From an uncultured Lachnospiraceae bacterium (GTDB lineage Bacteria; Bacillota; Clostridia; Lachnospirales; Lachnospiraceae), in NCBI GenBank assembly GCA_905235745.1, contig CAJOMN010000023.1, forward strand, positions 1-60,349: 60,349 nt of DNA, written 5' to 3'. Position numbers and translations under genes: made by a program. Shown here in pieces: positions 27,368 to 59,715 of this stretch. The notes below the pieces were generated by a model, which was given only the letters and a program-made list of their open reading frames with translations, was not told where the DNA came from and did not search any database. The stretch's first letter is position 1, and each line of letters begins with the position of its first letter.

Positions 27368-28237
27368 ATGAAGGTTGGAATTATTGGTGCCGGAACAATG
27401 GGACAGGGCATCGCTAAGGCATTTGCCCAGGTTGACGGTTATGAGGTAATGCTCTGCGATATCAAGCAGGAATGGGCAGAGGGCGGCAAGGACAAGATCA
27501 TCAAAGGATATGACAAGCTTGTTGCCAAAGAGAAGATGACAAGAGAGCAGGCTGATAAGATCATTAACAGCATCACTCCGGGTCTGAAAGAGAATATCTG
27601 CAAGGACTGCGACCTTATTGTTGAAGCGGCTTTTGAGGATATGGAAGTCAAGAAGACGACATTCAAAGAGCTTGATGAGATCTGCAAGCCCGAATGTGTA
27701 TTTGCGTCCAATACGTCATCACTTTCCATAACGGAGATCGGAAACGGCCTTAACAGACCCCTTATCGGTATGCACTTCTTCAATCCCGCAGACCGCATGA
27801 AGCTTGTTGAGGTGATCGCAGGTGTCAACACGCCTGACGAAACGGTAGAGACGATCAAGAAGATATCGGTCGAGATCGGCAAGACTCCGGTACAGGTCAA
27901 TGAGGCAGCAGGCTTTGTTGTTAACCGCATACTGATCCCGATGATCAACGAGGCGGCGTTTATCAAGATGGAAGGTGTATCGGATGTTGAAGGTATTGAT
28001 ACCGCGATGAAGCTTGGATCCAATCATCCCATGGGACCCCTTGAGCTCGGTGATTTCGTGGGACTTGATATATGTCTTGCCATAATGGACGTACTGTACA
28101 ACGAGACTGGCGACAGCAAGTACAGGGCATGCCCGCTTATCCGCAAGATGGTACGCGGAGGCAATCTCGGCGTCAAGACCGGCAAGGGCTTCTACATCTA
28201 CAACGAGGATCACACAAAGACCCCCATTGACAAATAG
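27368..28237 (+). CDS. hbd: 3-hydroxybutyryl-CoA dehydrogenase
   Basis: The product has 289 residues. The NAD(P)-binding GAGTMGQGIAKAF starts at residue 6. The catalytic Ser and His-Glu pair lie in SNTSSLSIT and GMHFFNPADRMKLVEVI, and the dimer domain has MGPLELGDFVGLD. It reduces acetoacetyl-CoA to 3-hydroxybutyryl-CoA. A GAGG ribosome site precedes it. Its stop is followed at once by a REP hairpin copy, separating it from bcd. Confidence 0.96.
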   Translation: MKVGIIGAGTMGQGIAKAFAQVDGYEVMLCDIKQEWAEGGKDKIIKGYDKLVAKEKMTREQADKIINSITPGLKENICKDCDLIVEAAFEDMEVKKTTFKELDEICKPECVFASNTSSLSITEIGNGLNRPLIGMHFFNPADRMKLVEVIAGVNTPDETVETIKKISVEIGKTPVQVNEAAGFVVNRILIPMINEAAFIKMEGVSDVEGIDTAMKLGSNHPMGPLELGDFVGLDICLAIMDVLYNETGDSKYRACPLIRKMVRGGNLGVKTGKGFYIYNEDHTKTPIDK

Positions 28238-28266
28238 TGTCAAAAGGGACGGTTCTTTTTGACACC
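28238..28266 (+). repeat. REP hairpin, forward, directly after the hbd stop
   Basis: The copy carries the core GGGACGGTTCTTTTT, flanked by TGTCAAAA on the left and GACACC on the right. The outer GTGTC/GACAC arms pair. A TATAAT lies 10 bp beyond it. Inside the butyrate operon it could pause transcription or protect the upstream mRNA. Confidence 0.85.
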
Positions 28267-28312
28267 TTTTTCAATATAATAATATTTAATACATATAACG
28301 GAGGAGATAATC

Positions 28313-29479
28313 ATGGATTTTTCTTTATCAAAAGAACATGAAATGGCAAGACAGTTGTTTAAAGATTTTGCCGAAACAGAAGTAAAGCCTCTCGCACAGG
28401 AGATCGATCAGGAACACAGATTCCCCAGGGAGACTGTTGAGAAGCTTGCAAAATACGGATTTCTGGGGATCCCGGTTCCCAAAGAGCTCGGAGGACAGGG
28501 CTGTGACGTTCTTACATATGCAATGTGCGTGGAAGAGCTGTCAAAGGTCTGCGGAACAACCGGCGTTATCGTATCGGCGCATACTTCGCTCTGCGTTGAT
28601 CCTATCATGACATTTGGTACGGATGAGCAGAAGCAGAAATATGTTGTTCCTCTCGCAAAGGGTGAAAAGCTCGGCGCTTTCGGTCTTACAGAGCCCGGTG
28701 CGGGTACTGATGCACAGGGACAGCAGACCAAGGCGGTGCTTGACGGTGACGAGTGGGTTCTTAACGGAAGCAAATGCTTTATCACAAACGGTAAGGAAGC
28801 GGATATATACGTTATATTTGCCGTTACTGGCAAAGTAGAAAAGCGCGGCAAGATGATGAAGGAGATATCCGCGTTTATAGTAGAAAAGGGAACTCCGGGA
28901 TTCACTTTCGGAACCAAGGAAAACAAGATGGGTATATGCGGCTCTGCCACATATGAACTTATATTCACCGATTGCCGTATACCGAAGGATAACCTTCTCG
29001 GCAAGCAGGGCAAGGGCTTCAATATCGCAATGCACACCCTTGACGGCGGACGTATCGGAATAGCTGCTCAGGCACTCGGACTTGCATCAGGTGCACTTGA
29101 GACAACGATCGAGTATGTCAAGGAGAGGAAGCAGTTCGGCCGTTCTATCGGACAGTTCCAGAACACGCAGTTCCAGCTCGCCGATATGGCTACAAAGGTT
29201 GAAGCGGCAAGACTGCTTGTATACAAGGCTGCCCGCGCCAAAGATCAGTATCAGCAGGACGGCAAGAGCGCATACGGTGTGGAAGCAGCCATGGCAAAGC
29301 TCTACGCAGCAGAGGTTGCAATGGAAGTTACGACAAAGTGCGTACAGCTTCACGGCGGTTACGGCTACATCAAGGAATATGATGTTGAGCGTATGATGCG
29401 CGATGCCAAAATCACGGAGATTTATGAAGGAACATCAGAGGTTCAGCGTATGGTCATATCCGCGAACTTGTTAAAGTAA
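28313..29479 (+). CDS. bcd: Butyryl-CoA dehydrogenase
   Basis: The product has 388 residues of the acyl-CoA dehydrogenase family. FAD-binding motifs GAFGLTEPGAGTDAQGQ and CFITNG are present, and the catalytic Glu is in ITEIYEGTSEVQRMVIS near the C-terminus. It reduces crotonyl-CoA to butyryl-CoA. With the ETF encoded next it forms the electron-bifurcating complex that also reduces ferredoxin, conserving energy (known for clostridial Bcd-Etf). GGAGGAGATAATC provides the ribosome site. Confidence 0.96.
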   Translation: MDFSLSKEHEMARQLFKDFAETEVKPLAQEIDQEHRFPRETVEKLAKYGFLGIPVPKELGGQGCDVLTYAMCVEELSKVCGTTGVIVSAHTSLCVDPIMTFGTDEQKQKYVVPLAKGEKLGAFGLTEPGAGTDAQGQQTKAVLDGDEWVLNGSKCFITNGKEADIYVIFAVTGKVEKRGKMMKEISAFIVEKGTPGFTFGTKENKMGICGSATYELIFTDCRIPKDNLLGKQGKGFNIAMHTLDGGRIGIAAQALGLASGALETTIEYVKERKQFGRSIGQFQNTQFQLADMATKVEAARLLVYKAARAKDQYQQDGKSAYGVEAAMAKLYAAEVAMEVTTKCVQLHGGYGYIKEYDVERMMRDAKITEIYEGTSEVQRMVISANLLK

Positions 29480-29529
29480 GATCTCGCGTCTGAGAATAGT
29501 TGATTATAATTACAGAAAGGACAATAAAG

Positions 29530-30315
29530 ATGAAAGTAGTAGTTTGTATCAAACAGGTTCCGGATACAAAGGGCGGCGTTAAGTTCAATCCCGACGGAAC
29601 ACTTGACAGAGGTGCCATGCTTGCGATCATGAACCCTGACGATAAAGCAGGTCTTGAGGCAGCTCTTAGATTAAAGGATCAGTATGGTGCAGAGGTTACT
29701 GTTGTTACTATGGGTCTTCCCAAGGCATCCGATGTACTTCGCGAAGCGCTTGCAATGGGAGCTGATAAGGCTGTTCTTGTAACGGACAGAGTTCTCGGAG
29801 GAGCGGATACATGGGCAACATCAACAACACTTGCCGGTGCGCTCCGTAATCTTGATTATGACCTTATCATCACGGGCCGTCAGGCTATCGACGGAGATAC
29901 TGCACAGGTTGGCCCGCAGATCGCCGAGCATCTCGGAATTCCCGTTATATCCTATGCTCAGGAGATCAAGGTAAACGGTGACAAGGTTACCGTTAAACGT
30001 CAGTATGATGACAGATATCACATGGTTGAGGTTAAGATGCCCTGTCTTATAACAGCGCTTTCCGAGCTCAACGATCCCAGATATATGACTCCCGGCGGGA
30101 TATTCGATGCATGCAAGGCAGACATCACCACATGGGGAAGAGCGGATCTCAAAGAAGTTGATGACGGCAACTTAGGTCTTAACGGTTCGCCCACCAAGAT
30201 CGCCAAGGCTTCCGACAAGGTTCGTAAGGGAGCAGGTGAGAAGGTCGTACCCGATTCACCCGAAGATGCGGTAAGTTACATCGTAGGTAAGTTAAAAGAG
30301 AAGCATGTAATATAG
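29530..30315 (+). CDS. etfB: Electron transfer flavoprotein beta subunit
   Basis: The product has 261 residues from ATG 29530 (AGAAAGGAC upstream). An earlier in-frame start at 29500 would precede the ribosome site. It opens MKVVVCIKQVPDTKGGVKFNPDG, has ALAMGADKAVLVTD, and TGRQAIDGDTAQVGPQIAEHLG, the AMP/FAD-binding pattern of bifurcating EtfB. It works with EtfA and Bcd to split electrons from NADH between crotonyl-CoA and ferredoxin. Confidence 0.96.
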   Translation: MKVVVCIKQVPDTKGGVKFNPDGTLDRGAMLAIMNPDDKAGLEAALRLKDQYGAEVTVVTMGLPKASDVLREALAMGADKAVLVTDRVLGGADTWATSTTLAGALRNLDYDLIITGRQAIDGDTAQVGPQIAEHLGIPVISYAQEIKVNGDKVTVKRQYDDRYHMVEVKMPCLITALSELNDPRYMTPGGIFDACKADITTWGRADLKEVDDGNLGLNGSPTKIAKASDKVRKGAGEKVVPDSPEDAVSYIVGKLKEKHVI

Positions 30316-30345
30316 TTTATAGTAAAGGAAAAGTGGTGAATAATT

Positions 30346-31410
30346 ATGAATATGACTCCAGAACAAATCGCACAGTACAAAGGTGTCTTTGTATTTGCGC
30401 AGCAGGTAGACAATGAAGTAAGCGGCATCGCTTACGAACTCCTCGGAAAGGCAAGAGAGCTTGCCGAGCCTTTAAAGACTGAAGTTACTGCAGTTCTTAT
30501 CGGATCGGGTGTTAAAGGTCTTGCGGACAATCTTGCAGAGTATGGCGCGGACAAGGTTATCGTAGTAGATGATCCCGAGCTTAAAGAGTACAGGACAGAG
30601 CCTTACGCACATGCTCTTGCATCGGTTATCAATGAGTACAAGCCTGAGATCATGCTTGTAGGTGCTACGGCTATCGGCCGTGACCTTGGTCCTACGGTAT
30701 CGGCAAGAGTGGCAACAGGTCTTACAGCGGACTGTACGGTTCTTGACATAGGTGATTTTCCTCTTCAGCCTGTTCCCGGCAAGGAGGACGAACAGCTTCA
30801 CAACCAGCTTCTTATGACCCGTCCTGCATTCGGCGGCAACACGATCGCAACGATCGCATGCCCTTATAACCGTCCTCAGATGGCAACGGTCCGTCCGGGT
30901 GTTATGCAGAAGATCGAGCCGAAGAAGGGTGCCAAGGCGGAAGTGATCGAATATAATCCCGGATTTACTCCCAATAACAGGTATGTTGAGATCAAGGAAG
31001 TTGTTAAGGCTGTTTCTGATGTTAAGGATATCATGGATGCCAAGATACTCGTATCCGGCGGACGTGGAGTAGGATCCCCCGAGAACTTCAAGATACTTGA
31101 AGAGCTTGCGGATGCCATCGGCGGACAGGTTTCATGCTCACGTGCAGTTGTCGATTCAGGCTGGAAGCCTAAGGAACTCCAGGTAGGCCAGACCGGTAAG
31201 ACCGTTCGTCCCAATGTATATTTCGCGATCGGTATTTCAGGTGCCATCCAGCATGTTGCCGGTATGGAAGAGTCCGACATCATTATTGCCATCAACAAAG
31301 ATGAGGATGCTCCTATCTTCGATGTTGCGGACTATGGTATCGTCGGCGATCTTAATAAGATCGTTCCCAAGCTTACCGAAGAGGTAAAGGCTGCTTTGGC
31401 AGAGAAATAA
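30346..31410 (+). CDS. etfA: Electron transfer flavoprotein alpha subunit
   Basis: The product has 354 residues. The C-terminal FAD domain carries LVSGGRGVGSPENFKILEELA, SRAVVDSGW, QVGQTGKTVRPNVYFAIGISGAIQH (FAD loop) and IIAINKDEDAPIF. The N-terminal domain begins YKGVFVFAQQVDNEVS. It pairs with EtfB, 30 bp upstream. A ribosome site (AAAGTGGTG) is weak but spacing is fine. Confidence 0.96.
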   Translation: MNMTPEQIAQYKGVFVFAQQVDNEVSGIAYELLGKARELAEPLKTEVTAVLIGSGVKGLADNLAEYGADKVIVVDDPELKEYRTEPYAHALASVINEYKPEIMLVGATAIGRDLGPTVSARVATGLTADCTVLDIGDFPLQPVPGKEDEQLHNQLLMTRPAFGGNTIATIACPYNRPQMATVRPGVMQKIEPKKGAKAEVIEYNPGFTPNNRYVEIKEVVKAVSDVKDIMDAKILVSGGRGVGSPENFKILEELADAIGGQVSCSRAVVDSGWKPKELQVGQTGKTVRPNVYFAIGISGAIQHVAGMEESDIIIAINKDEDAPIFDVADYGIVGDLNKIVPKLTEEVKAALAEK

Positions 31411-31440
31411 ATATCATATTTTCATGAGGTGACATATAAA

Positions 31441-32358
31441 ATGGTTAAAAATTTTGATGACCTTCTCGGTAAGATCAGGACTATTGACCGCAAGAAGGTT
31501 GCAATTGCGGTAGCGCAGGACAAGGCGGTTCTCGAGGCCGCCAAGGCTGCCAGGGAAAGAGACATAGCCGATGCGATACTTGTAGGAAACGAAGCCGAGA
31601 TCCGCTCTATAGGCGAAGAGATCGGCATGAAACCGGATGATTACGAGATCATCAATGTGGAGGATGAGGTGGAGGCAGCCACAAAGGCTGTTTCCATAGT
31701 ATCCGAGGGAAAGGCCGACATATACATGAAGGGTCTTCTTCCTACCGGAACATTTCTGAAAAGTGTGCTCAACAAGGAAGTCGGACTTCGTACCGGAAAA
31801 CCGCTTTCTCATGTGTGCGTTATCGAGGTACCGAAGGTAGACAGAGTGCTCTTCCTGTCAGATGTTGCTTTTATGCCGTATCCCACACTTGAGGACAAGA
31901 AGTGCATCATCGAATATACTGCGGATGTTGCGAAAGCATGCGGAGTGGACAATCCCAAGGCTGCAGTTGTATGCGCTGTCGAGACGGTCAATCCCAAGAT
32001 GCCGATCACGGTTGAAGCCGACGAACTGTCCAAGATGCAGGATCGCGGCGAGATACAGGGCTGTATTGTCGAGGGACCTCTTTCGATGGATATCGCTCTC
32101 TACAAAGCGGCAGCGGAAGAAAAGGGCGCAATGGATCGTAAGGTTGCCGGAGATGCCGATATACTGATTTTCCCCGACATCCATGCAGGAAACCTTGTGT
32201 ACAAGACGATGACGCAGGTTGTCGAGAACATGAAGAACGGCTGCATCCTCACAGGAACCAAGGCTCCCGTTGTACTTACATCCCGCGCCGACACATTCGA
32301 GACCAAGGTCAATTCGATCGCGCTTGCGGCTATAGTTGCACACGAACTGAAAAAATAA
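31441..32358 (+). CDS. ptb: Phosphate butyryltransferase
   Basis: The product has 305 residues of the Pta/Ptb family. ATG 31441 is favoured over GTG 31429 because GAGGTG lies 9 bp before it. Motifs include [31 protein letters not shown], and [13 protein letters not shown] near the end. It converts butyryl-CoA plus phosphate to butyryl phosphate. It sits between etfA and buk, so the operon releases butyrate by the phosphorylating route. Confidence 0.94.
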
Positions 32359-32383
32359 TTACCGGTTATTTAAGGAGAAAATC

Positions 32384-33451
32384 ATGGGATTAAAAAGTTT
32401 AATTATCAACCCGGGTTCCACATCGACCAAGATCGGGATCTTTGAGGACGAGACTCTTCTGTTTGATGAAACGCTCAGACATACTACCGAAGAGATCAAC
32501 TCATTCGAATCGATTTTCGCCCAGAAGGATTTTCGCAAGGATATAATACTTAATTTCCTGAAGAAGAAGGATTTCGATATCAACACTCTTGATTTTGTTG
32601 TAGGCCGCGGCGGGATGTTAAAGCCGATCCCGGGCGGTACATACGAGGTTACCGACGCCCTTCTCGAAGACCTTAAGGTAGGAGTGCAGGGACAGCATGC
32701 TTCCAATCTGGGCGGCATCCTCGCAAGGGAGATCGGCGACAGCCTTTCGATCCCTTCGTATATCGTAGATCCCGTTGTTGTAGACGAGATGATAGATATT
32801 GCGAGATATTCGGGATGTCCGGAACTTCCGAGAGTGAGCAAGTTCCACGCGCTCAACCAGAAGGCTGTTGCTAAGCGTTATGCCAAGGAGATCGGGAAGA
32901 ATTACGAGGATCTGAACCTCATCGTTGTCCATATGGGCGGCGGATGTTCGGTAGGACCGCACAAGAAGGGAAAAGTCATCGATATCTTCAACGCGCTTGA
33001 CGGTGACGGTGCATTCTCGCCCGAGCGTGCGGGTGCAGTACCTCCCGGAGCTCTTGTTAAGATGTGCTTTTCCGGCAAGTATACGGAAAAGGAAATATAC
33101 AAAAAGCTTGTCGGCGACGGAGGCTTCAATGCGTATGTTGGGACTAATGATCTGCGCGAGGTCGGACAGATGGTTGACGCAGGGGATGCAAAGGCCAAGG
33201 AATACCGCGACGCTTTTATCCTTCAGGTTGCAAAGGACATAGGGTCAATGGCATGCGTTCTCGACGGTAAGGTGGATCAGATAATCGTTACCGGCGGTAT
33301 CGCCTATGACAAATCCGTTGTAGCCGGGCTGAAGGAGCGCTGCGAGTGGATCGCTCCGTTTACCGTATATCCGGGTGAGGACGAGCTGCTTGCTCTTGCC
33401 CAGGGCGGTCTTCGCGTCATGAACAAAGAAGAGGATGCAAAGCCTTATTAA
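32384..33451 (+). CDS. buk: Butyrate kinase
   Basis: The product has 355 residues. ASKHA-fold motifs are [13 protein letters not shown] at the N-terminus, [50 protein letters not shown] and ITGGIAYDK. It makes ATP and butyrate from butyryl phosphate. GGAGAAAATC precedes the ATG. It closes the operon; a REP copy lies 25 bp after the stop, then a terminator. Confidence 0.96.
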
Positions 33452-33476
33452 ACTGATCTTTATTAAGAGATCTAGT

Positions 33477-33505
33477 TGTCAAAAGGGACGGTTCTTTTTG
33501 TCACC
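33477..33505 (+). repeat. REP hairpin, forward, after buk
   Basis: The core GGGACGGTTCTTTTT is flanked by TGTCAAAA and GTCACC. ATATAATAG follows about 10 bp later, as with the 28238 copy. Confidence 0.85.
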
Positions 33506-33544
33506 TTTATTGATATAATAGATTTGTAGATTTGAAAATAATAA

Positions 33545-33585
33545 GAGCGGATACCCTGTATAGGATATCCGCTCATGATTTTCTC
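33545..33585. terminator. Terminator between buk and the converging secreted-protein gene
   Basis: GAGCGGATA (33545) and TATCCGCTC (33566) pair around a 12-nt loop, followed by ATGATTTTCTC. It could serve both strands. Confidence 0.65.
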
Positions 33586-33613
33586 ATTATATGGCCGTAT
33601 TTTCTGTATAGAT

Positions 33614-34691
33614 CTATCTTCGCCCCAGGTTTGATCGCTGCCGCGTTTGCTGCCTAAGTTGATTAGAATATACTGCCCACAGGACTTCGTGAATGTTCAT
33701 TGTTCCGTCAGGCTTGATGTATAGTGCGTAATTAAAACCGACAGGTACTGTGCAGATCATGGGTCTGCCCATGAACATGAATGTTATATTGTATGGGATA
33801 TCGTTGTTTGCAGCTAAGAGTCTTGATGTATTTGCATCAACAATATCAACACTTGTCATATTGAGAGCCATCCCGTTGGTTCTGAAGATTTGTTTGCTTG
33901 CAGAGGGAATGACTGAAAGTGCTGTAAGGCTTGACTGTGCGGATGCAAGCTGAGCTGAAGCTGTCTGTTGCCGGGTTGCTGCCGCGGATGCGGGAGCCGG
34001 AGTCGATGAGCCGGAACCTGACGACGTACTGCGTGATGTCGGGGTGTCATCATCGTCATCATCGTCATTACCACTACTTTGTTCAGATGATGAACCTCCT
34101 GATGAAGAAGATGGTTGTGTTATATTAAACCAATACGTTCCGGTTGCTTTAATATAATTAACATCATATGATTTATATGAATAAGTATCGTTTTCTTCAT
34201 CGTAGTCGTAATTGATCGTTATGGATGAATCGACTACAGCAAGCCTTCCATTGGTAAATGCCGATGGGACTTCGGAAATATCAACACCTTTTATATTTGA
34301 TACCGAATACTCAAAGCCAATCTGAGTGCCATAAATGGTACCAGGGTACAATGTTGTGGAATATGGACCGGGATCTGACAAGCTTTTTACAAAGAGTCCC
34401 GCTCAACGTAAATTCATACATAAATTCTACTTTATTATCGCTCGGAGCGTACTTACATGTAACACCAGTAACATCTGTAATGGAATATGGTAATTGTTTC
34501 TCGCCTTCCGCGGTATCAATGTTACTGGGCAAAGCATCAATAGACACATCACAAGAGGCTCCTGATAAACCGCTTATTGGTACATCGTTAAACGTTTGCT
34601 CACTTGCCAGCGTTGGAACAGCGTATATCAGAGCGATTACGAACACTGATACAAGCATTAATGATAGTTTTTCAAACACCTTCTTTTGCAT
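33614..34691 (-). pseudogene. Secreted Ser/Thr/Asp-rich protein split by a frameshift in an A5 tract
   Basis: On the minus strand, an ORF from ATG 34691 (AAGGAGGAGAG ribosome site) opens with a signal peptide (KLSLMLVSVFVIALIYAVPTLA). It reads about 105 meaningful codons to TLCKKL near 34385. The matching continuation (SDPGPYSTTLYPG) is in the +1 frame and runs to 33614. Removing one A from the AAAAA at ~34386-34390 joins them into one ~355-residue secreted protein with an Asp-rich run (DDDDDDD), a Ser/Thr/Pro/Ala linker and a ~90-residue C-terminal domain. It may be an inactivated gene, a phase-variable homopolymer or a sequencing error. Function unknown. Confidence 0.75.
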
Positions 34692-34770
34692 AGCTCTCCT
34701 CCTTAAAAGTGGTTCATAATGGTTAAAACACTAATAAAATAGCACATTTGGGGGGGTGTCAAGCGTCGAA

Positions 34771-34804
34771 GCGTCAAAAGGGACGGTTCTTTTTGACGCT
34801 TTTG
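34771..34804 (+). repeat. REP hairpin, forward, upstream of the RAYT gene
   Basis: The GGGACGGTTCTTTTT core has outer arms GCGTC/GACGC rather than the usual GTGTC/GACAC, a compensatory change that keeps the stem. The rest of the 34692-35004 gap shows no gene; an ATGATATCAT palindrome lies near 34835. Confidence 0.85.
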
Positions 34805-35004
34805 TCATGAAATAAAAATACTTGCAAACTTCATGATATCATGATAAATTTTGTGTTATCGGAGGGGACGCCCTCATACATATTTCTAACTTTTCAAATT
34901 CTGTGACTTAACACAGACGGATCCGGTGAGTTCATTTCGCCAGTAATCCAAAAACACGGACAATCGAAGATCAAGTGATTTTTACCAAAGAGAGGGGTGA
35001 TGAT

Positions 35005-35739
35005 TTGCCAAGACAGGCAAGGAATATTCATGAAGGCGGATTTCGCCATATAATAATACGAGGAATCGGAAAGCAGATCCTGTTTGAAGATGAGTATGAT
35101 AACAAGTTCTTTCTCCGGATATTGGAGCGGTACAGTAGAGAAACGGATGTATCGGTTTGCGCATACTGCCTTATGGAAAATCATGTGCATCTGCTGATTC
35201 ATGATCATGGCATTAACACTCCGCTTCTTATGAAGAAGATCGGAGTCTGCTATTCTGCATACTTTAACGATAAATACGAGAGGACGGGACACTTGTTTCA
35301 GGACAGGTATAAATGTGAAAACATCTATGATGACAGGTACTATCTGACTGTTTTGAGATATATTTTACGAAATCCGGAAAAAGCAGGGATATGCAGAACA
35401 GAAAAATATCGATGGAGCAGCTACCATGCTTATGGAGATGAGAGCTCGTTTCTTGAACAATCTGTCACATACGGTTTCTTCGGAGATGAACAGGAATATC
35501 GAGATTATATTAATACGGAAAATCATGACAGTTGCATGGAATATGCCGGCCGCAGAGATGATACTTGGGCAAAAGATATTATTGAGAAAATCCTTGGGGC
35601 ATCGTCGGGAACGGTAATCCAGAACTATGGTAGGCTCGAGAGGGATCAGGCATTAAAATCATTGAAATCGGAAGGCTTGAGCATCCGGCAAATAGAGCGG
35701 CTTACCGGGATAAGTCGCGGAGTTATCCAGAAGGCATAG
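35005..35739 (+). CDS. REP-associated tyrosine transposase (RAYT, IS200-like Y1 family)
   Basis: The product has 244 residues from TTG 35005, with AGAGGGGTGATG upstream and the family start (L/M)PRQAR. The Y1 transposase domain shows MENHVHLLIHDHG (the HUH metal site), the basic GHLFQDRYK element and a Tyr-rich RYWSSY-like segment (EKYRWSSYHAYG). A C-terminal helix-turn-helix (LSIRQIERLTGISRGVIQKA) recognises DNA. Such enzymes process REP hairpins as single strands. It is flanked by REP copies at 34771, 35757 and 35779, and is absent elsewhere in the window, so it is the likely mover of these repeats. Confidence 0.93.
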   Translation: MPRQARNIHEGGFRHIIIRGIGKQILFEDEYDNKFFLRILERYSRETDVSVCAYCLMENHVHLLIHDHGINTPLLMKKIGVCYSAYFNDKYERTGHLFQDRYKCENIYDDRYYLTVLRYILRNPEKAGICRTEKYRWSSYHAYGDESSFLEQSVTYGFFGDEQEYRDYINTENHDSCMEYAGRRDDTWAKDIIEKILGASSGTVIQNYGRLERDQALKSLKSEGLSIRQIERLTGISRGVIQKA

Positions 35740-35756
35740 TGTCAAGTTTTCAAAAG

Positions 35757-35806
35757 GTGTCAATAGGGACGGTTCTTTTTGTCAAAAGGGACGGTTCTTT
35801 TTGTCA
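35757..35806 (+). repeat. Two tandem, overlapping REP hairpins
   Basis: Two forward cores GGGACGGTTCTTTTT occur 22 bp apart (copies about 35757-35782 and 35779-35806), sharing the TGTC junction. They lie 17 bp after the RAYT stop. Confidence 0.85.
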
Positions 35807-35842
35807 TACATTTCGTGGTTAACCTCAAACTGAGAATAATAA

Positions 35843-35889
35843 ATAATCATCTGAAAACTACTTAAATATAGACGTTTTCAGATGATTAT
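35843..35889. terminator. 16-bp perfect hairpin after the RAYT gene
   Basis: ATAATCATCTGAAAAC (35843-35858) and GTTTTCAGATGATTAT (35874-35889) pair exactly. TGTTATTTTTGG follows. Terminator-like. Confidence 0.6.
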
Positions 35890-35951
35890 GTTATTTTTGG
35901 AGATAATTATAATCGGCAGAAACAAACAGTAATTGTCCGAACAGAACATGT

Positions 35952-35980
35952 TGTCAAAAAGAACCGTCCCTATTGACACC
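35952..35980 (-). repeat. REP hairpin, reverse, in the cobI leader
   Basis: Reverse core AAAAAGAACCGTCCC, facing the tandem copies at 35757. Together they make an inverted REP pair around the intervening 145 bp. Confidence 0.8.
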
Positions 35981-36013
35981 TTAAGTCTTTTGACACATGT
36001 AAACAGGGGAAAA

Positions 36014-36721
36014 ATGACAGGCAAAATATACGGAATCGGCGTTGGGATCGGGGATCCGGAAGATATCACACTAAAGGCTGTTAGACTTATAAAGGAGTCA
36101 GATGTACTTATCTGCCCACAAGAAGATTTGGATAGGTGCAGAGCATATCAGATAGCAAAGAAGTCCGTTCCCGAAATAGAAGACATTAAGACCATCTCCT
36201 TTGAATTCGAAATGGTAAAAGATAAAACTATAAGAGAGTATAACCACCGGAAGATATACGAAGAAGTAAAGGAACTGGTCAAAGCCGGGAAAACCGTCTC
36301 ATTTCTTACCATCGGGGATCCGGCACTTTATTCGACATATTCGTATATTGCAGATCTTGCGAAATCTGACGGAATACAGACGTTTTCGGCAAGCGGAATA
36401 TCATCATTGACGGCCAGCGCCAACAGCTTAGGAATTCCGCTTTGCGAAAAAGGAGACCAGCTCCATGTGATATCCGAACTAAATGACATCGAAGCCGGTC
36501 TGACCTTACCGGGAACTAAGGTTATCATGAAGTGCGGAAAAGATATAGTCCGTATTAAGGAACTGCTTAGAAAGAAAACCGGTATCTTGGTATATGCGGT
36601 ATCGGAATGCGGCACAAAGAATGAGAAGAGTTATATAGGCTTAGAAAACATACCCGACGAAGGCAACTACATGTTGACTATCTTGGTTAAGGAGGATGTC
36701 AAAAAGAACCGTCCCTATTGA
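36014..36721 (+). CDS. cobI: Precorrin-2/cobalt-factor-II C20-methyltransferase
   Basis: The product is 235 residues from ATG 36014 (CAGGGGAAAA ahead). The longer in-frame ORF from 35933 runs through the REP hairpin and is not the real start. It shows GIGVGIGDPEDITLKAVR at the start (SAM-binding GxGxGDP), LTIGDPALYSTYSYI, and EKGDQLHVI. It methylates C20 in cobalamin synthesis. The C-terminal codons DVKKNRPY and the stop lie in a reverse REP copy (36697-36725). No other cobalamin gene is in the window, so it is an orphan. Confidence 0.9.
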   Translation: MTGKIYGIGVGIGDPEDITLKAVRLIKESDVLICPQEDLDRCRAYQIAKKSVPEIEDIKTISFEFEMVKDKTIREYNHRKIYEEVKELVKAGKTVSFLTIGDPALYSTYSYIADLAKSDGIQTFSASGISSLTASANSLGIPLCEKGDQLHVISELNDIEAGLTLPGTKVIMKCGKDIVRIKELLRKKTGILVYAVSECGTKNEKSYIGLENIPDEGNYMLTILVKEDVKKNRPY

Positions 36722-36725
36722 CACA
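36697..36725 (-). repeat. REP hairpin, reverse, overlapping the cobI stop
   Basis: Reverse core AAAAAGAACCGTCCC. It encodes the final residues and TGA of the methyltransferase gene, so its insertion rewrote the C-terminus. Confidence 0.85.
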
Positions 36726-36817
36726 CCTATTGACATAAACTTGTGCATAACGCAAGCGAAATTTAAGAGATGATAGAAACTTGACATTGGCATCCTATGG
36801 TAATATGATAATTATAG

Positions 36818-36894
36818 TTTCAGCGGTTTATAACAGGTAAAACATCTATAAACCGCTGAAAGACATCAAATAAAGATAGTTTCAGCAGTTTATA
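36818..36894. repeat. Three copies of a 15-bp TTTCAGCGGTTTATA motif upstream of the ATPase gene
   Basis: TTTCAGCGGTTTATA (36818), its exact complement TATAAACCGCTGAAA (36847) and the variant TTTCAGCAGTTTATA (36880) lie within 77 bp. The third is 9 bp before the ATPase start. A regulatory site or the residue of a short mobile unit is possible. Confidence 0.6.
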
Positions 36895-36903
36895 GAGGAA
36901 TTT

Positions 36904-38322
36904 ATGAATATTATCGGAAGAGAACGGGAAAAGGATATCATATCAAAGTGTCTGGAGTCGAAGAGGCCTGAATTTTTGGTAATATATGGCCGAAGACGTG
37001 TGGGAAAAACATATCTTGTCAGGGAGTTCTTTAATGGAAGGTTTTCTTTTTATACAACAGGGATTCCGGATGCGAAAACAAGGAATCAGTTGAAAGCATT
37101 CAATGAATCCCTGAATTATTATGGTGATGATATCGGGACAATTCCCAAAGACTGGTTTGAGGCATTCAGACGGCTTCGTAAAATACTGGAGTCTGAAGAG
37201 GTGCATCGCGATGCATCCAGCGGCAAAAAGGTCGTTTTTATTGATGAGATGCCCTGGCTCGATACAGCAAGGTCGGATTTTAAGTCGGCATTTGATTATT
37301 TTTGGAACAGTTGGGGGTCATCTCAGGATGATCTTCTGCTGATAGTATGCGGATCGGCCACCTCATGGATTATAAGCAATATCCTGAGTGACAAAGGCGG
37401 GTTTCATAATAGGATCACCAGGCATATTCATATCAATCCTTTTAATTTGGGTGAGTGCAAACTTTATTTTAATGATAACGGTATTATCCTTAACCGTGAT
37501 CAAATGATAGAAAGCTATATGATATTTGGCGGAATTCCGTACTATCTGAATCTGTTGGACAGCCGACTGAGCCTGACGCAGAATGTAGACAGCCTGATCT
37601 TTGACGAAAAAGGTGATCTGCATTATGAATATGATCAACTCTTTAAGTCCCTGTTTAAAAATCCAAATAATCACATGAAGATCATAGAAACTATCGCCGG
37701 TCAAAAAAGAGGGCTTCAGAGAACCGATCTCGCAGCAAAATCAGGTGTTTCGGATGGTGAAGGACTTACCAAGGCACTTCGCGAGCTGGAGCAGTGTGGC
37801 TTTATCAGACAGTATAAAAACTTTACTACTTCTCAAAAAGGCAGTTTTTATCAGGTGATAGATCCGTTTGTTCTCTTCTGCCTGCACTTCCGTGGCGGAA
37901 AGATAAAGTCGTGGCAGTCGTTTATTAAGTCTCCGGATTACTACGCATGGAGAGGCAATGCTTTTGAGACAGTATGTCTCGAACATATTCCGCAGATCAA
38001 ATCGGCACTTGGAATATCGGGAATAGACAGTTCGGAGTATTCTTGGAAGAGTAAAAAGAAAAATGGCGGAGCCCAAATAGATCTTCTTATAGACAGACGA
38101 GATGATGTTATTAATCTGTGTGAGATGAAATGCACGGATAAGGCTTATGAGATAACTGCAGACTACAGAGATAATCTGATCAATAAGGTCTCTTCTTTTA
38201 CCGAAGAAGTTAATCCTAAGAAATCAGTGCATGTTACACTGATAACATCAAACGGTTATAAGCGTAACGAGTATTCGGATGTAGCACAAAGCTATGTGGG
38301 ACCGGACAGTTTATTTATGTAG
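36904..38322 (+). CDS. Archaeal-type AAA+ ATPase with DUF234 C-terminal domain
   Basis: The product has 472 residues. The Walker A GRRRVGKTYLV lies near residue 29 and Walker B KVVFIDEMPWL near ~112, in the Arch_ATPase (STAND-like) domain. A winged helix (~285-320) precedes a DUF234 region with FETVCLEHIPQIK and GGAQIDLLIDRRDD...LCEMKC. The latter has a D...ExK pattern of restriction-like folds. The role is unknown in this family; a nuclease-linked or toxin-like role is proposed for relatives. The start follows GAGGAATTT. Three 15-bp repeats precede it. Confidence 0.88.
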   Translation: MNIIGREREKDIISKCLESKRPEFLVIYGRRRVGKTYLVREFFNGRFSFYTTGIPDAKTRNQLKAFNESLNYYGDDIGTIPKDWFEAFRRLRKILESEEVHRDASSGKKVVFIDEMPWLDTARSDFKSAFDYFWNSWGSSQDDLLLIVCGSATSWIISNILSDKGGFHNRITRHIHINPFNLGECKLYFNDNGIILNRDQMIESYMIFGGIPYYLNLLDSRLSLTQNVDSLIFDEKGDLHYEYDQLFKSLFKNPNNHMKIIETIAGQKRGLQRTDLAAKSGVSDGEGLTKALRELEQCGFIRQYKNFTTSQKGSFYQVIDPFVLFCLHFRGGKIKSWQSFIKSPDYYAWRGNAFETVCLEHIPQIKSALGISGIDSSEYSWKSKKKNGGAQIDLLIDRRDDVINLCEMKCTDKAYEITADYRDNLINKVSSFTEEVNPKKSVHVTLITSNGYKRNEYSDVAQSYVGPDSLFM

Positions 38323-38340
38323 TATCGGCAGACTTTAAAG

Positions 38341-38365
38341 GACAAAAGGGACGGTTCTTTTTGTC
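38341..38365 (+). repeat. REP hairpin, forward, after the ATPase gene
   Basis: Core GGGACGGTTCTTTTT between GACAAAA and TGTC. It lies 18 bp after the ATPase stop. Confidence 0.8.
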
Positions 38366-38458
38366 ATCTTCCATAGAAACGCAATTTGAACAACATGCAA
38401 TTGAAATTGCCACCAATCCCGAAATAATGTATAATCTTTAATACTATGATTTATAGTG

Positions 38459-38480
38459 AACGCATTTATTTAATGCGTTT
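38459..38480 (+). promoter_or_regulatory. AACGCATT/AATGCGTT hairpin in the leader of the next gene
   Basis: An 8-bp stem around a 5-nt loop, followed by TTATTATAA, 12 bp before the Shine-Dalgarno sequence. It may be an attenuator or a terminator for upstream reading. Confidence 0.45.
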
Positions 38481-38503
38481 ATTATAAAAGCAGGAGGGTG
38501 TAC

Positions 38504-38908
38504 ATGGAGAAGGAAGTTGGATGTTTTAAGGTCTGGACAGATGATGACGACCGCAGGATCGTATATTCGAGAGGCACAGGCATAGCCCACGCCCATGAGA
38601 TAGCGTGGCTGTATGAGACTATAATCGAGCTTACAAGCGAATGGCATGATGACAAGGGTTTTGTATACATGGCGTTTATTGAGGAGCTTGAGCAGGTCAG
38701 CCCCAAGGGCAGCATCCAGTATGTCGAGCTTCACAGGAACCTTGAAGCTAACGGCTGCAAGTATATTGCCTATATAGAAGGCAATTCCTATGAAGTTTCC
38801 GTCCAGTCGTACAAGCACAAGCAGATGAGCAACACGCCCCGTACGGAAAATCGTTACTTCCCGACGAAATATGAGGGATATAAGTGGTTTGAGGAAATGG
38901 GCTTCTAA
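38504..38908 (+). CDS. Hypothetical cytoplasmic protein
   Basis: The product is 134 residues from ATG 38504 (CAGGAGGG with 6-bp spacing; the GTG at 38498 overlaps that site). It is acidic, with DDDDRRIVYSRGTGIAHAHEIAWLYETI and a central VEL-RNLEANGCKYIAYIEGN strand. The pattern of mixed strands and helices is like a small alpha/beta (STAS- or Sec14-like) fold, but I cannot assign it. It is followed by a methyltransferase gene after 23 bp, so the two may be co-expressed. Confidence 0.75.
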   Translation: MEKEVGCFKVWTDDDDRRIVYSRGTGIAHAHEIAWLYETIIELTSEWHDDKGFVYMAFIEELEQVSPKGSIQYVELHRNLEANGCKYIAYIEGNSYEVSVQSYKHKQMSNTPRTENRYFPTKYEGYKWFEEMGF

Positions 38909-38931
38909 GACTGTAAGACTAAAGGTATATT

Positions 38932-39963
38932 ATGAGTATCAATAAGAAATACAGCAAACCGTTCGGTAATCTTAACACGTTAAAGACAAGCTTTTTTGAC
39001 AACAACGACGGAATGCTCAAGATGGCTGACGGGATGGCTGACGTTCTCCTTGCGCAGCCAAAGCGCACCAAATGTAAGATCTGCGGCGCCGAACTTGGCG
39101 AGCCGCTGTACAGGAGCCACAGGATCGGATATATCGAGTGCGGTAATTGCGGACACTTAAACAGCGAATGCGAGGATACGGATGATTTTGCAAGCGCTGT
39201 TTATGTTGAGGACGACTATTCGAAGAATTACAGCGCCGAAGACAAGGAAGGTTATATCCGCAGAAGGGATATGATCTACATCCCCAAGGCCGAATATCTG
39301 AAGGAATGTCTTGAATCAGAAGGCGTAAACGCCGGGGATATAGATATTCTTGACATAGGGGCGGGATGCGGCTATTTCGTATCTGCCGCAAGGAGTCTCG
39401 GCATGCATGCGGTCGGGATCGATGTATCCGGCAGCGAGGTAGAGTTCGGAAACGCGATGAATCCCGAAAAGTGGCTTACGCACGTCGGACTTACGGATTC
39501 CATAGACTATATTTCCAAAGCATCTGCAAATGTTCTTACCGCGATAGGTGTTCTCGAGCACCTTGTGCATCTGGATGAAAATCTTGAGGCGATCAGGAAC
39601 AATACCAATATCAGATATGTGTATGCATCGGTTCCGATGTTTTCTTTCTCAAGCTGCTTCGAAGCGGCATTTCCGGGCGGCTACAACAGGCATACCGGAG
39701 GGACGCACACCCACCTGTTTAGCAATGAATCGATAGAGGACATGGCTCGCAGGATCGGATTCGAGATCGGTTACGAGTGGCGCTTCGGATCGGATATCAA
39801 TGATCTGTACAGATTCTTAAGCGTGTCAATGCGCAGGGAAGGAAACGACAGGCTCGCCGAGCTCTTCTCTGACAGATTCGTTCCGCTTATGGACGATCTT
39901 CAGGCTGTCCTTGATAAGAGCGAGTTCTCGTCTGAGCTGCATTTTATCCTCAAGAGAAAATGA
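38932..39963 (+). CDS. SAM-dependent methyltransferase with N-terminal zinc ribbon
   Basis: The product has 343 residues. A C-x2-C...C-x2-C zinc ribbon (CKICGAELG, ECGNCGHLN) at ~48-80 precedes a class I methyltransferase core with ILDIGAGCGYFVSAARSLG (motif I, ~143) and GIDVSGSEVEFG. It resembles the sugar or nucleotide-sugar C-methyltransferase-like proteins found in surface-polymer clusters; the substrate is unknown. A reverse REP copy abuts its TGA stop. Confidence 0.88.
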   Translation: MSINKKYSKPFGNLNTLKTSFFDNNDGMLKMADGMADVLLAQPKRTKCKICGAELGEPLYRSHRIGYIECGNCGHLNSECEDTDDFASAVYVEDDYSKNYSAEDKEGYIRRRDMIYIPKAEYLKECLESEGVNAGDIDILDIGAGCGYFVSAARSLGMHAVGIDVSGSEVEFGNAMNPEKWLTHVGLTDSIDYISKASANVLTAIGVLEHLVHLDENLEAIRNNTNIRYVYASVPMFSFSSCFEAAFPGGYNRHTGGTHTHLFSNESIEDMARRIGFEIGYEWRFGSDINDLYRFLSVSMRREGNDRLAELFSDRFVPLMDDLQAVLDKSEFSSELHFILKRK

Positions 39964-39991
39964 TGACAAAAAGAACCGTCCCTTTTGACAC
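39964..39991 (-). repeat. REP hairpin, reverse, directly after the methyltransferase stop
   Basis: Reverse core AAAAAGAACCGTCCC followed by TTTTGACAC, with a partial repeat CTTTTGACAC right after it. Confidence 0.85.
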
Positions 39992-40008
39992 TTTTGACAC
40001 ATCTCGTA

Positions 40009-40037
40009 TTGAATAACCCCCTGTATTTTGATACAAT
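40009..40037 (+). promoter_or_regulatory. Promoter of secA
   Basis: TTGAAT (40009) and TACAAT (40032) are 17 bp apart, 47 bp before the secA start. Confidence 0.6.
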
Positions 40038-40083
40038 GTAATTTGGTCTGCCATGCGAGGCGTTTGGCAGGTAGGAGGATTTC

Positions 40084-42660
40084 ATGAACATTATCGAGAA
40101 GATATTCGGCACTCACAGCGAAAGAGAAGTTAAGCTTGTGCTGCCGCTTGTTGACAAGATTGAATCATACCGTCCGCAGATGATGGAACTGTCCGATTCA
40201 CAGCTTCGGGCTCTCACGATAGATTACAAGAAGCGATATGCAAACGGAGAAAGCCTCGACGATCTTCTGCCCGAGGCATATGCCACGGTCCGTGAGGCTG
40301 CAAGGCGCGTTCTTAATATGGAGCATTACCGGGTGCAGCTTATCGGCGGGATAATCCTGCATCAGGGTCGTATTGCCGAGATGAAGACAGGTGAAGGTAA
40401 GACGCTCGTGGCTACGCTTCCTGCGTACCTTAATGCACTAACCGGCCGCGGAGTGCACGTTGTTACCGTCAATGATTACCTCGCGAACAGAGACGCGGAG
40501 TGGATGGGTCAGGTCTATGAATTTCTCGGGCTCACGGTTGGCGTTGTCCTTAACCAGATGAAGCCGGAAGAGCGTCGTGCGGCATACAACTGCGACATTA
40601 CATATGTTACGAACAATGAGCTCGGATTTGATTATCTTCGTGACAACATGGTCATATACAAGGAACAGCTTGTTCTGCGTGATCTCGCGTTTGCGATCAT
40701 CGATGAGGTCGACTCGGTGCTTATTGATGAGGCCCGGACCCCCCTTATCATTTCCGGTCAAAGCGGCAAATCGACCAAGCTGTATGAGGTATGCGATGTA
40801 CTTGCCCGTCAGTTAAAGCGCGGCGAGGACATGGAAGACCTCACCAAGATGGATGCCATAATGGGTGTCGAGAGAGAAGAAACGGGTGATTTTATCGTCA
40901 ATGAGAAGGATAAGTTTGTCACCCTCACCGCGCAGGGTGTGTCCAAGGTCGAAAAGTTCTTCCAGATAGACAATCTTGCCGATCCGGAGAACGTTGAAAT
41001 ACAAAACAACGTAATACTGGCGCTTCGTGCGCATAATCTTATGTTCCGCGATCAGGATTATGTGGTCAAGGACGAACAGGTTCTCATAGTTGATGAATTT
41101 ACCGGACGAATAATGCCCGGACGCCGCTATTCCGACGGACTCCATCAGGCTATCGAGGCGAAGGAGCATGTTAAGGTTAAGCGCGAGAGCAAGACACTTG
41201 CCACTATCACTTTCCAGAACTTCTTCAACAAATTTGAAAAGAAGTGCGGCATGACCGGTACGGCTCTTACCGAGGAAAAAGAGTTCCGTGACATATACGG
41301 AATGGATGTTATCGAGATCCCGACCAACATGCCCGTAGCCAGAGTCGACCTTCAGGATGCGGTATACAAGACAAGACGCGAAAAATTGTTCGCCATATGC
41401 AACGAGATAGAAGAGGCGCACAAGACCGGCCAGCCGATCCTTGTCGGCACGATAACTATCGAGGCGTCTGAGGAACTCTCGAAGCTCCTTACCAAAAGGG
41501 GTATAGAGCACAAGGTGCTAAATGCCAAGTTTCATGAGCTTGAGGCGGCTATAGTTGCCGATGCCGGTATACACGGGGCAGTTACGATCGCCACCAACAT
41601 GGCCGGGCGTGGTACGGATATCAAGCTCGACGATGAGGCAAGGGCAGCGGGCGGACTTAAGATAATCGGTACGGAGCGTCATGAGTCAAGACGTATCGAT
41701 AATCAGCTTCGCGGCCGTTCGGGACGTCAGGGCGATCCCGGTGAATCAAGGTTCTTTATCTCGCTTGAAGACGACCTGATGAGGCTGTTTGGCTCCGACA
41801 AGCTCATGAATGTATTCAATACGCTCGGAGTTCCGGAAAATGAGCAGATAGAGCATTCAATGCTTACAAACGCCATAGAGAAGGCGCAGAAGAGGATAGA
41901 AGGCAACAACTTCGGCATCAGAAAGAATCTCCTCGAGTACGATCAGGTAATGAACGAGCAAAGAGAGATCATATACGCCGAGAGGCGCCGTGTTCTCGAC
42001 GGCGAGAGCATGAGAGACGTTGTATTCCGGATGGCGACGGAATTCGTGGAGAATACGGTTGAAATGTGCATCGGAGATGTAGCCGATCCCGAGGATTGGG
42101 ATCTTGCCGAACTGAACCAGCACCTTCAGGCAACCGTTCCGGTACAGGAGATCAGAACTCCCGATGTCAGGGGCATCAAGAAGGAAGAACTTATCCACCG
42201 CCTCAAGGAAGAGGTTGTCAAGATATATGAAGCCAAGGAAGCGGAATTCCCGAGTCCCGAGCAGATAAGAGAGATTGAGCGCGTTATCCTCCTCAAGGTG
42301 ATCGACAGAAAATGGATGGATCATATTGATGACATGGAACAGCTCCGTCAGGGTATCGGACTGCAGGCATACGGTCAGAGAGACCCGCTTGTCGAGTACA
42401 AGATGATGGGTTATGACATGTTTAACGCGATGACGGATGCGATCAGCGAGGAAACGGTCAGGGTACTGTTCCATATCCGTGTCGAGCAGAAGGTTGAACG
42501 TGAAGAGGTTGCCAAGATCACCGGAACCAACAAGGATGATTCGGGCCCGAAGAAGAGCGTAAAGCGTGAATCGGATAAGGTATATCCGAATGACCCGTGT
42601 CCGTGCGGCTCGGGCAAGAAATATAAACAATGTCACGGTATGTCACGACGTACGTCGTGA
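40084..42660 (+). CDS. secA: Preprotein translocase ATPase SecA
   Basis: The product has 858 residues, within the normal range. Walker A in [15 protein letters not shown] (~97), [19 protein letters not shown], the preprotein-crosslinking and helical domains, [13 protein letters not shown] (motif V), and [18 protein letters not shown] (motif VI) are all present. The C-terminal zinc-binding tail [17 protein letters not shown] binds SecB or phospholipid. It powers protein export through SecYEG. GTAGGAGGATTTC supports the ATG. A REP pair separates it from prfB. Confidence 0.98.
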
Positions 42661-42665
42661 CATTG

Positions 42666-42765
42666 GGTGTCAGAAGGGACGGTTCTTTTTGACACCATGC
42701 AGTAGCCCTTGACAAAATGATAAGAGTTGAAAAAGGTGTCAAAAAGAACCGTCCCTTCTGACACC
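42666..42765. repeat. REPIN: inverted pair of REP hairpins between secA and prfB
   Basis: A forward copy (42666-42696) and a reverse copy (42735-42765) are mirror images, even sharing the same GTCAGAAGGGAC / GTCCCTTCTGAC variation. They enclose 38 bp. This is the inverted-doublet architecture (REPIN) expected of the mobile unit of a RAYT. It starts 5 bp after the secA stop and ends 21 bp before the prfB start. Confidence 0.9.
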
Positions 42766-42786
42766 TTCTGACACTGATTAATCATT

Positions 42787-57733: not shown

Positions 57734-57780
57734 TGTCAAAAGGTGTCAAAAGGGACGGTTCTTTTTGGCACCTTTTGACA
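57734..57780 (+). repeat. Extended REP hairpin after ecfT
   Basis: The GGGACGGTTCTTTTT core is enclosed by TGTCAAAAGGTG (57734) and CACCTTTTGACA (57769), a perfect 12-bp outer stem. TATAAT follows directly. Confidence 0.85.
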
Positions 57781-59613: not shown

Positions 59614-59715
59614 TTATCAAAAAACCTTCCCTTTTGACACATAGATCCGGAGACATTGAAATCGTGATATTTAGGAAAGCAACGGGGTGACAAAAGGGAC
59701 GGTTCTTTTTGACAC
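59614..59715. repeat. Inverted REP pair upstream of the tRNA genes
   Basis: A degenerate reverse copy (59614-59640, AAAAACCTTCCCTTTTG) and an intact forward copy (59686-59715) face each other over 45 bp. One member is decaying, unlike the pristine pair at 42666. Confidence 0.75.

Follow-up and report, generated by a model that had tools for sequence, protein, structure and literature searches.

A single-copy Y1 transposase gene of RAYT kind and a dispersed hairpin family with a common apex in an uncultured Lachnospiraceae bacterium and its relatives

The window, i.e. the whole 60,349-nucleotide stretch analysed here, contains a forward-strand gene for a Y1 HUH transposase of 244 aa (CDS 35005..35739, within an ORF spanning 34975-35739). 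The TTG at 35005 is most likely the start codon, judging from the putative ribosome site and from the relative G001, whose gene starts alike. The protein carries an NHVH metal site, an FQ motif and the catalytic sequence RYILRNP, and the columns conserved among relatives include NHVH, the HLFQDR region and RYI-x-x-NP. Pfam Y1_Tnp is matched at 46 bits (cut-off 23). NCBIfam REP_Tyr_transpos is matched at 46.5 bits, under its curated cut-off of 80, and is the sole NCBIfam family matching all 55 members of the alignment of relatives. A single-sequence search of PDB sequences with the transposase gave no match, and a profile search placed 4er8, the E. coli TnpA-REP, at the top (E 0.0017). The same entry, TnpA-REP with a REP hairpin, is the nearest PDB structure to an AlphaFold model based on 55 sequences (pLDDT 92.8, pTM 0.72; E 2.7e-7, TM 0.73 by target, rmsd 5.6). 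Family, metal site and fold thus confirm the Y1-type transposase named by an earlier, sequence-only reading of this DNA. The C-terminal HTH that it also proposed fits the helices of the model, in which residues 185-242 form a tail that we read as HTH-like, but no Pfam HTH family scored above cut-off against the transposase. A sigma-70 family model matches 3 of the 55 relatives at some position in the protein.

The transposase protein finds one match in its own genome, so that the gene is single-copy. The genome's other Pfam Y1 gene is on contig C22, beside an ORF read as TnpB; no TnpB family was found among ten ORFs scanned next to the transposase. The nearest named proteins (57%) come from ruminant-gut Clostridia bins. 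In the relative G015, the gene (L206, contig positions ~25800-25880) contains an in-frame tandem duplication, with NGMEPKNSTELE present twice ahead of the HTH-like tail.

Four exact copies of a 16-mer, GGGACGGTTCTTTTTG, surround the transposase gene within putative hairpins. One lies upstream (34771..34799, core at 34780, + strand), two form a tandem pair just 3' of the gene (35757..35806, cores at 35766 and 35788, + strand) and the fourth is an inverted downstream copy (35952..35979, core at 35955, - strand). The feature had been delimited as 34771-35980; 34771 is the start of the upstream hairpin, and the gene itself most likely runs from the TTG at 35005. Dispersed copies are found between the genes for 3-hydroxyacyl-CoA dehydrogenase and acyl-CoA dehydrogenase (28237..28265, core 28246, +), 3' of an acetate-kinase-family gene (33477..33503, core 33485, +), overlapping the 3' end of a tetrapyrrole methylase ORF (36697..36724, core 36700, -), at 38341..38366 (core 38348, +), immediately 3' of a methyltransferase gene and before secA (39964..39991, core 39967, -), at 57743..57771 (core 57752, +) and at 59687..59715 (core 59696, +). 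A REPIN-like inverted pair (42667..42765, cores 42676+ and 42740-) separates secA from a release-factor gene, which we take to be prfB. The sequence-only reading had counted four flanking copies and about nine more, none before 28 kb, in agreement with the 13 exact copies of the window, all past 28 kb, and a degraded copy at about 59614-59640. Allowing up to two mismatches added no copy in the window (shuffle mean 0.02, maximum 1, n=100 shuffles). The host genes of the hairpin gap at 28237-28313 perhaps form a butyrate operon. Downstream of the methylase gene, at 36808-36894, a 25-base direct repeat is present in two copies, 88% alike, whose starts are 62 bases apart.

The whole genome (2,496,141 bases in 32 contigs, the window being contig C23) contains 38 exact copies of GGGACGGTTCTTTTTG and none of the same 16-mer read backwards. 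Their consensus is gTGtCAAAAGGGACGGTTCTTTTTGaCAccttt, and the stem is uniform across the copies. Judged by a crude ORF call, 33 of the 38 copies lie clear of ORFs, and five (35955, 36700, L010, L022 and L024) overlap one at its end or close to it, the copy at 35955 lying 5' of a likelier ATG at 36014. The sequence-only reading had likewise put the further window copies in gaps or at gene ends. The repeat is a palindrome within the 20-40 nt range of REPs, extragenic and repeated genome-wide. The copies are mostly single, with three close inverted pairs. Some have sequence in common beyond the hairpin: the copy at 38330-38382 shares about 45-54 bases beyond the core with L007 and L023 (near 1501), and on contig C7 the copies L011-L014 have another tail common to all four, so larger repeat units exist. 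Contigs C5, C6, C7 and C18 of this genome terminate about 0.1-0.4 kb from a hairpin copy, which looks as though the repeats had interrupted assembly.

As single-stranded DNA, the consensus is predicted to form a hairpin of -6.7 kcal/mol (z -3.3), and the segment 42657-42776, which includes the inverted pair, one long hairpin of -40 kcal/mol (z -10.9). The predicted fold of the tandem pair (35754-35803) is not better than shuffles (z -1.1). In these predictions the central GGGACGGTTC occupies the apex and is partly unpaired, partly in weak pairs, so we refer to it as apex or core and not as loop. A GT[AG]G foot occurs within 16 nt before the core in 1 of 38 copies on the top strand, and at the bottom-strand foot in 0 of 38.

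Syntenic DNA from same-genus genomes, at about 69-83% identity, was used to compare orthologous gaps between species. The secA/release-factor gap, 126 bases long in the window, holds the two inverted copies in the window and no copy in any of the six alignable relatives (G001, G005, G007, G010, G011 and G015; G003 was not alignable), which are 93-138 bases shorter than the window over the aligned stretch. At the dehydrogenase gap, the hairpin of the window corresponds to a slightly shorter one in G001, no hairpin is present in G005 and G010, and G007 and G015 have other sequence without the core, with a half-like remnant in G007. The methyltransferase/secA gap has one copy in the window and no GGGACGG in G001, G010 and G015 (G005, G007 and G011 were not comparable); in G003 it contains an inverted pair of hairpins that share the core but not the stem. 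The window gaps at 33451, 36721 and 38322 were likewise not comparable. The lineage of the window genome holds copies where relatives have none, and repeat position varies between species; the sequence-only reading had named a lack of strain-to-strain variation in position as evidence against its claim.

In G001 and G015 the same genes flank the transposase gene. Its G001 version is a compact unit consisting of a hairpin, about 30 bases, the TTG start, the gene and an inverted hairpin about 10-20 bases past the stop. G005 and G007 have no gene in this gap, and G010 has 4.8 kb of sequence there. Between 33614 and 38322 the transposase of the window is accompanied by additional genes (an ORF that no Pfam family matches, a tetrapyrrole methylase and an AAA ATPase); the flanks of this segment closely adjoin in G001 and G015, and it is perhaps a small island. 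At 42620-42670, by our reading of the alignment, the SecA frame of the window enters a separate palindrome (ATGTCACGACGTACGTCGTGACAT) and then stops, unlike the ends of its relatives; insertion 3' of secA appears to have altered the last SecA codons.

Relatives of the transposase were gathered by protein alone, and the best 80 of at least 583 confirmed stretches were retained. They are mostly Clostridia, with Bacilli, Negativicutes and Treponema as well as bins labelled Coriobacteriia, Chloroflexi, Acetothermia and Desulfaltia. Of these 80 relatives, 61 have the exact 10-mer GGGACGGTTC no more than 600 bp from the gene (172 copies), and none has the reversed 10-mer there. Groups in which the apex accompanies the gene are Clostridia, Bacilli, Negativicutes and the bins labelled Coriobacteriia, Desulfaltia and Acetothermia. 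The arms on either side of it vary by locus (TGTCAA/TTGACA, TGCACCAA/TTGGTGCA, GAACACAG/CTGTGTTC, GGTTCAGG/CCTGAACC and others) and pair nevertheless: over 169 copies with full flanks the mean net number of pairs is 5.35, whereas reassigning the left arms at random to other copies gives a mean of 2.88 (maximum 3.15, n=200 shuffles). Only exact copies of the 10-mer entered this test, which is therefore silent on apex conservation; it is the count among the 80 relatives that addresses the apex. The arms of some single copies pair poorly. By eye, stems are alike within each of the genomes G094, G197, G229 and G188, and less so in G111, from few copies.

The polarity of the copies follows a simple rule. 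The outermost upstream copy of the 10-mer is on the + strand in 57 of the 59 related loci having one, the outermost downstream copy on the - strand in 47 of 53, and both point inwards at 43 of 51 loci. Moreover, opposite-strand neighbours less than 200 bp apart are convergent in 47 of 48 cases over nine genomes (p 3.5e-13; the cases are not all independent, and G197 is represented by 16 of its 19 copies), i.e. these pairs, two REPs in inverted orientation at short spacing as in REPINs, are oriented like the two ends of the gene itself. Neighbours up to 200 bp apart are on the same strand in 60 of 108 cases in the nine genomes.

Of the 19 relatives without the 10-mer, 13 carry another GGGAC-headed core repeated around the gene; the remaining six have no repeated GGGAC core, although L153, L111 and L106 have related or other inverted repeats. 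Over 104 labelled loci (the 80 named relatives, 23 others and the window), a GGGAC-headed core is present at least twice in 83, as GGGACGGTTC in 57 and as one of 15 other types in 26; at 21 loci no such repeated core was found. Variants of the second half include GGTTC, GGAGG, GTTTC, AGGTC and AGACC, and GGGACAG-type and GGGGTCAG-type cores also occur beside relatives' genes. In G013 (L064, ~1221-1285 and 2100-2440), the transposase has around it copies of a very different repeat, CACACACCGTTACAAAATTGTTAC, in direct orientation. Core types were mapped on a quickly built tree of 100 proteins, 81 of whose rows carried a label; the locus L154, a tie, we assigned to GGTTC. GGTTC versus other requires 13 changes (shuffled mean 20.1, minimum 15, n=300), and the sixth core base, G or A, five (shuffled mean 9.6, minimum 7). 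On the gene tree, core type in the sense of GGTTC versus other is therefore distributed non-randomly. Compared only with one another, the rarer types require 17 changes versus a mean of 18.1, a value reached by 63 of 300 shuffles and not significant. Distant relatives, at 24-40% identity, were found in 11 plasmid records and one phage record. Among seven plasmid-borne relatives, four (Pseudoalteromonas, Sporomusa, Rhodospirillum and Iodobacter) have (G)GGGTCAG-type inverted repeats, that of Acetoanaerobium has the same apex as the window, and those of Collinsella and Skermanella have neither around the gene. The protein of Acetoanaerobium noterae, a cultured species, is 33% identical to that of the window.

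At the level of genomes, RGGGACGGTTCY was counted in 196 genomes of the class, that of the window included, and the gene was sought with an alignment-based profile. The 57 genomes with a strong match contain 23.4 copies on average and the 110 without a match 2.1, and at least five copies are present in 35 of 57 versus 11 of 110 (Fisher p 4.7e-12). The thresholds (strong meaning E up to 1e-40, and five copies) were picked after the tables had been seen, and 29 weak-match genomes, seven of them with at least five copies, were kept out of this test and counted as having no strong gene at the genus and family levels. There the proportions are 30 of 44 genera versus 11 of 90, and 21 of 29 families versus 4 of 36 (p 4.6e-7).

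Some genomes count against the coupling. G188 and G227 hold 73 and 35 copies, respectively, and neither has any Pfam Y1 match. Ten genomes, seven of the 11 copy-rich ones without the gene and three with a weak match, were checked for Y1 genes, which were found only in G230 and G087. In the genus of G188 the gene is present in G127 and G222 and absent from G045, so gene loss in G188 is a fair guess. However, the copy near the gene of G127 has a stem unlike the four sampled in G188, which counts against our preferred explanation, and no copy was seen in the stretch around the gene of G222; simple inheritance in G188 is therefore not favoured. Conversely, 17 of the 57 strong-gene genomes have zero or one copy of the RGGGACGGTTCY core; among the ten whose gene flanks were read, six have another repeated GGGAC-type core and four none repeated. 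High copy number in close relatives lacking a RAYT had been named by the sequence-only reading as evidence against its claim. In 24 same-genus genomes, 11 of which have some match to the transposase gene, the exact 16-mer occurs once in 4 and is absent from 20, a count that tests the window's version only, since the same-genus hairpins read have other stems or cores. The claim is limited by some more distant genomes, in which many cores occur without any Y1 match.

Copies also cluster near the gene in some genomes. Within 50 kb of it lie 8 of 31 sites in the window genome (expected 0.75, P 5.6e-7), 12 of 27 in G094 (expected 3.4, P 4.4e-5) and 5 of 7 in G197 (P 5.2e-7, from 16 of its 19 copies). 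Clustering is not significant in G027, G229, G161, G194 and G157. The genomes were hand-picked as single contigs or for listable rows, and one of three gene matches was placed in G157. Local clustering, seen in three of eight genomes, was rejected as a general rule and kept as a lead.

In many lineages the gene and the hairpin apex co-occur, with RGGGACGGTTCY as the common apex and a stem that differs but pairs. Support for a RAYT that has a hairpin family of its own comes from the fold, from the hairpins flanking relatives' genes, from the genome-level association and from presence or absence at orthologous gaps. Like the sequence-only reading, we infer that the transposase moves these repeats. 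The same hairpin tip next to different stems beside related genes suggests that the enzyme reads the tip. Our main reading, to which we give a probability of about 0.76, is that a Y1 single-strand transposase of RAYT kind would recognise, cut and move the 25-30 nt hairpin, in a REP system recognised by its apex.

The biochemistry of IS608 is part of the basis for the scheme that we propose. As in that system, and in TnpA-REP according to the accessible part of PMC8266576, the hairpins would be bound single-stranded, cut by the tyrosine and re-joined elsewhere. The folded strand would be recognised by its apex, and not by a GTAG foot as in canonical TnpA-REP, with the stem providing shape only and the tyrosine of RYILRNP nicking beside the hairpin. 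Inverted pairs (REPINs) would be the hopping non-autonomous units, perhaps emptied hairpin-gene-hairpin elements; that convergent pairs share the polarity of the gene's ends would fit such an origin. A wider formulation, which we put forward tentatively and hold at slightly under even odds, is that group 1 / subclass 2.1 RAYTs as a whole may form an apex-reading REP system. In such a system the GGGAC half would be near-constant, the second half would be a code shifting with the enzyme, the stem could be any pairing sequence, apparently homogenised per genome, and spread would be biased near the gene in some genomes, as for a cis-acting enzyme.

Another agency could have spread or kept the hairpins, whether replication slippage, gene conversion, recombination or another transposase, with the Y1 gene merely sitting among them or regulating itself through them. 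Genomes such as G188, rich in copies but lacking the gene, agree with this, as does the frequency of same-strand neighbours (60 of 108 within 200 bp), which slippage would give. We nevertheless consider it unlikely, since gene and apex occur together in 61 of the best 80 of at least 583 relatives, inverted pairs and gene ends have the same polarity, and core types agree with the gene tree more closely than shuffled ones. The hairpins might instead be RNA elements, terminators or stabilisers of mRNA 3' ends maintained by selection. Indeed, 24 of the 38 genomic copies are within about 60 bp of a gene 3' end or overlap one (17 on the same strand as the gene and 7 on the opposite strand, p 0.06), and two copies fold well as RNA on the + strand (z -3.9 and -6.6), with -2.5 for one on the - strand. 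Terminator function as the main role was rejected: a scan of 28000-43000 passed 1 of 11 copies and found 10 terminators in total, against 11.7 expected by chance. No Rfam match came near its gathering score in the same interval, the hairpin is absent from some orthologous gaps of relatives, and the coupling with the gene would be left unexplained. We give the RNA explanation a slim chance as the primary one; the hairpins may have a secondary effect on RNA.

It is scarcely probable that the locus is an ordinary IS200/IS605 insertion sequence accompanied by MITE-like debris. The fold superfamily is the same, and the Y1 gene on contig C22 does lie beside an ORF read as TnpB. However, TnpA proteins of IS200/IS605 have Y-x3-Q, exist in several near-identical copies and often accompany TnpB, whereas the window protein has Y-x3-NP, its gene is single-copy in its genome, the ten neighbouring ORFs include no TnpB family, and the hairpins are far more numerous than the gene.

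The findings tie a RAYT kind described as REP-less to a dispersed hairpin family with a common 10-nt tip. The tip stays while the stem changes, so natural variation itself sets the part that would be recognised apart from its scaffold. In this way the recognition code of single-strand transposases would become directly testable, and a simple sequence signature would serve to locate such systems in uncultured bacteria. In the open-access literature searched, no link of a subclass 2.1-type RAYT to dispersed hairpins was found in print, and among the matches listed for the 10-mer, on both strands, no title or abstract concerned bacterial repeats.

The locus agrees with the general description of RAYTs, a Y1 HUH fold with a Y-x3-NP tyrosine and a single-copy gene flanked by a dispersed palindrome family. 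Assigned by motifs, the protein resembles subclass 2.1 / TIRYT. In the available part of Quentin et al. 2018 (PMC6006769), subclass 2.1 (RAYT group 1) has such motifs and an HTH tail; the likeness includes NHVH, FQ (W[EQ] or FQ), Y-x3-NP, a length of about 240 aa (about 238 aa in that definition) and the HTH-like tail. The same part of the article states that neither automatic nor manual searches found REP-like sequences near subclass 2.1 genes, whereas 61 of the 80 relatives studied here, the best 80 of at least 583, have hairpins with the 10-mer. The TIRYT genes of TIRtrons are described in the accessible portion of Di Nocera et al. 2013 (PMC3733652) as Y1 genes flanked by inverted repeats sharing GGGGWSAS, partly self-complementary, with some moderately abundant families in dimers or clusters. 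The present system likewise has a Y1 transposase flanked by inverted repeats, some self-complementary or in families, but with AGGGACGG in the window, RGGGACGG in relatives and RGGGACGGTTCY in the hairpin apex in place of GGGGWSAS. The terms 'Firmicutes' and 'Clostridi' are absent from the main text of that article, figures aside. With the REPINs described in the available parts of PMC3116915 and PMC8049555, inverted REP pairs proposed as the replicating unit, the system shares inverted pairs, but most of the 38 copies in the window genome are single. Canonical TnpA-REP systems, or REPtrons, as the available parts of PMC8266576 and PMC2817692 present them, have in common with it the fold, the REP-flanked gene, dispersed palindromes and inverted pairs. 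According to the former, loop positions are critical in two of three REPtrons, so a reading of the apex has precedent. The system is best seen as one of the subclass 2.1 / TIRYT kind whose hairpin ends would have multiplied as REPs. What differs from TnpA-REP is the lack of a GTAG foot (GT[AG]G in 1 of 38 copies) and a single apex sequence that reaches far across lineages while the stem varies.
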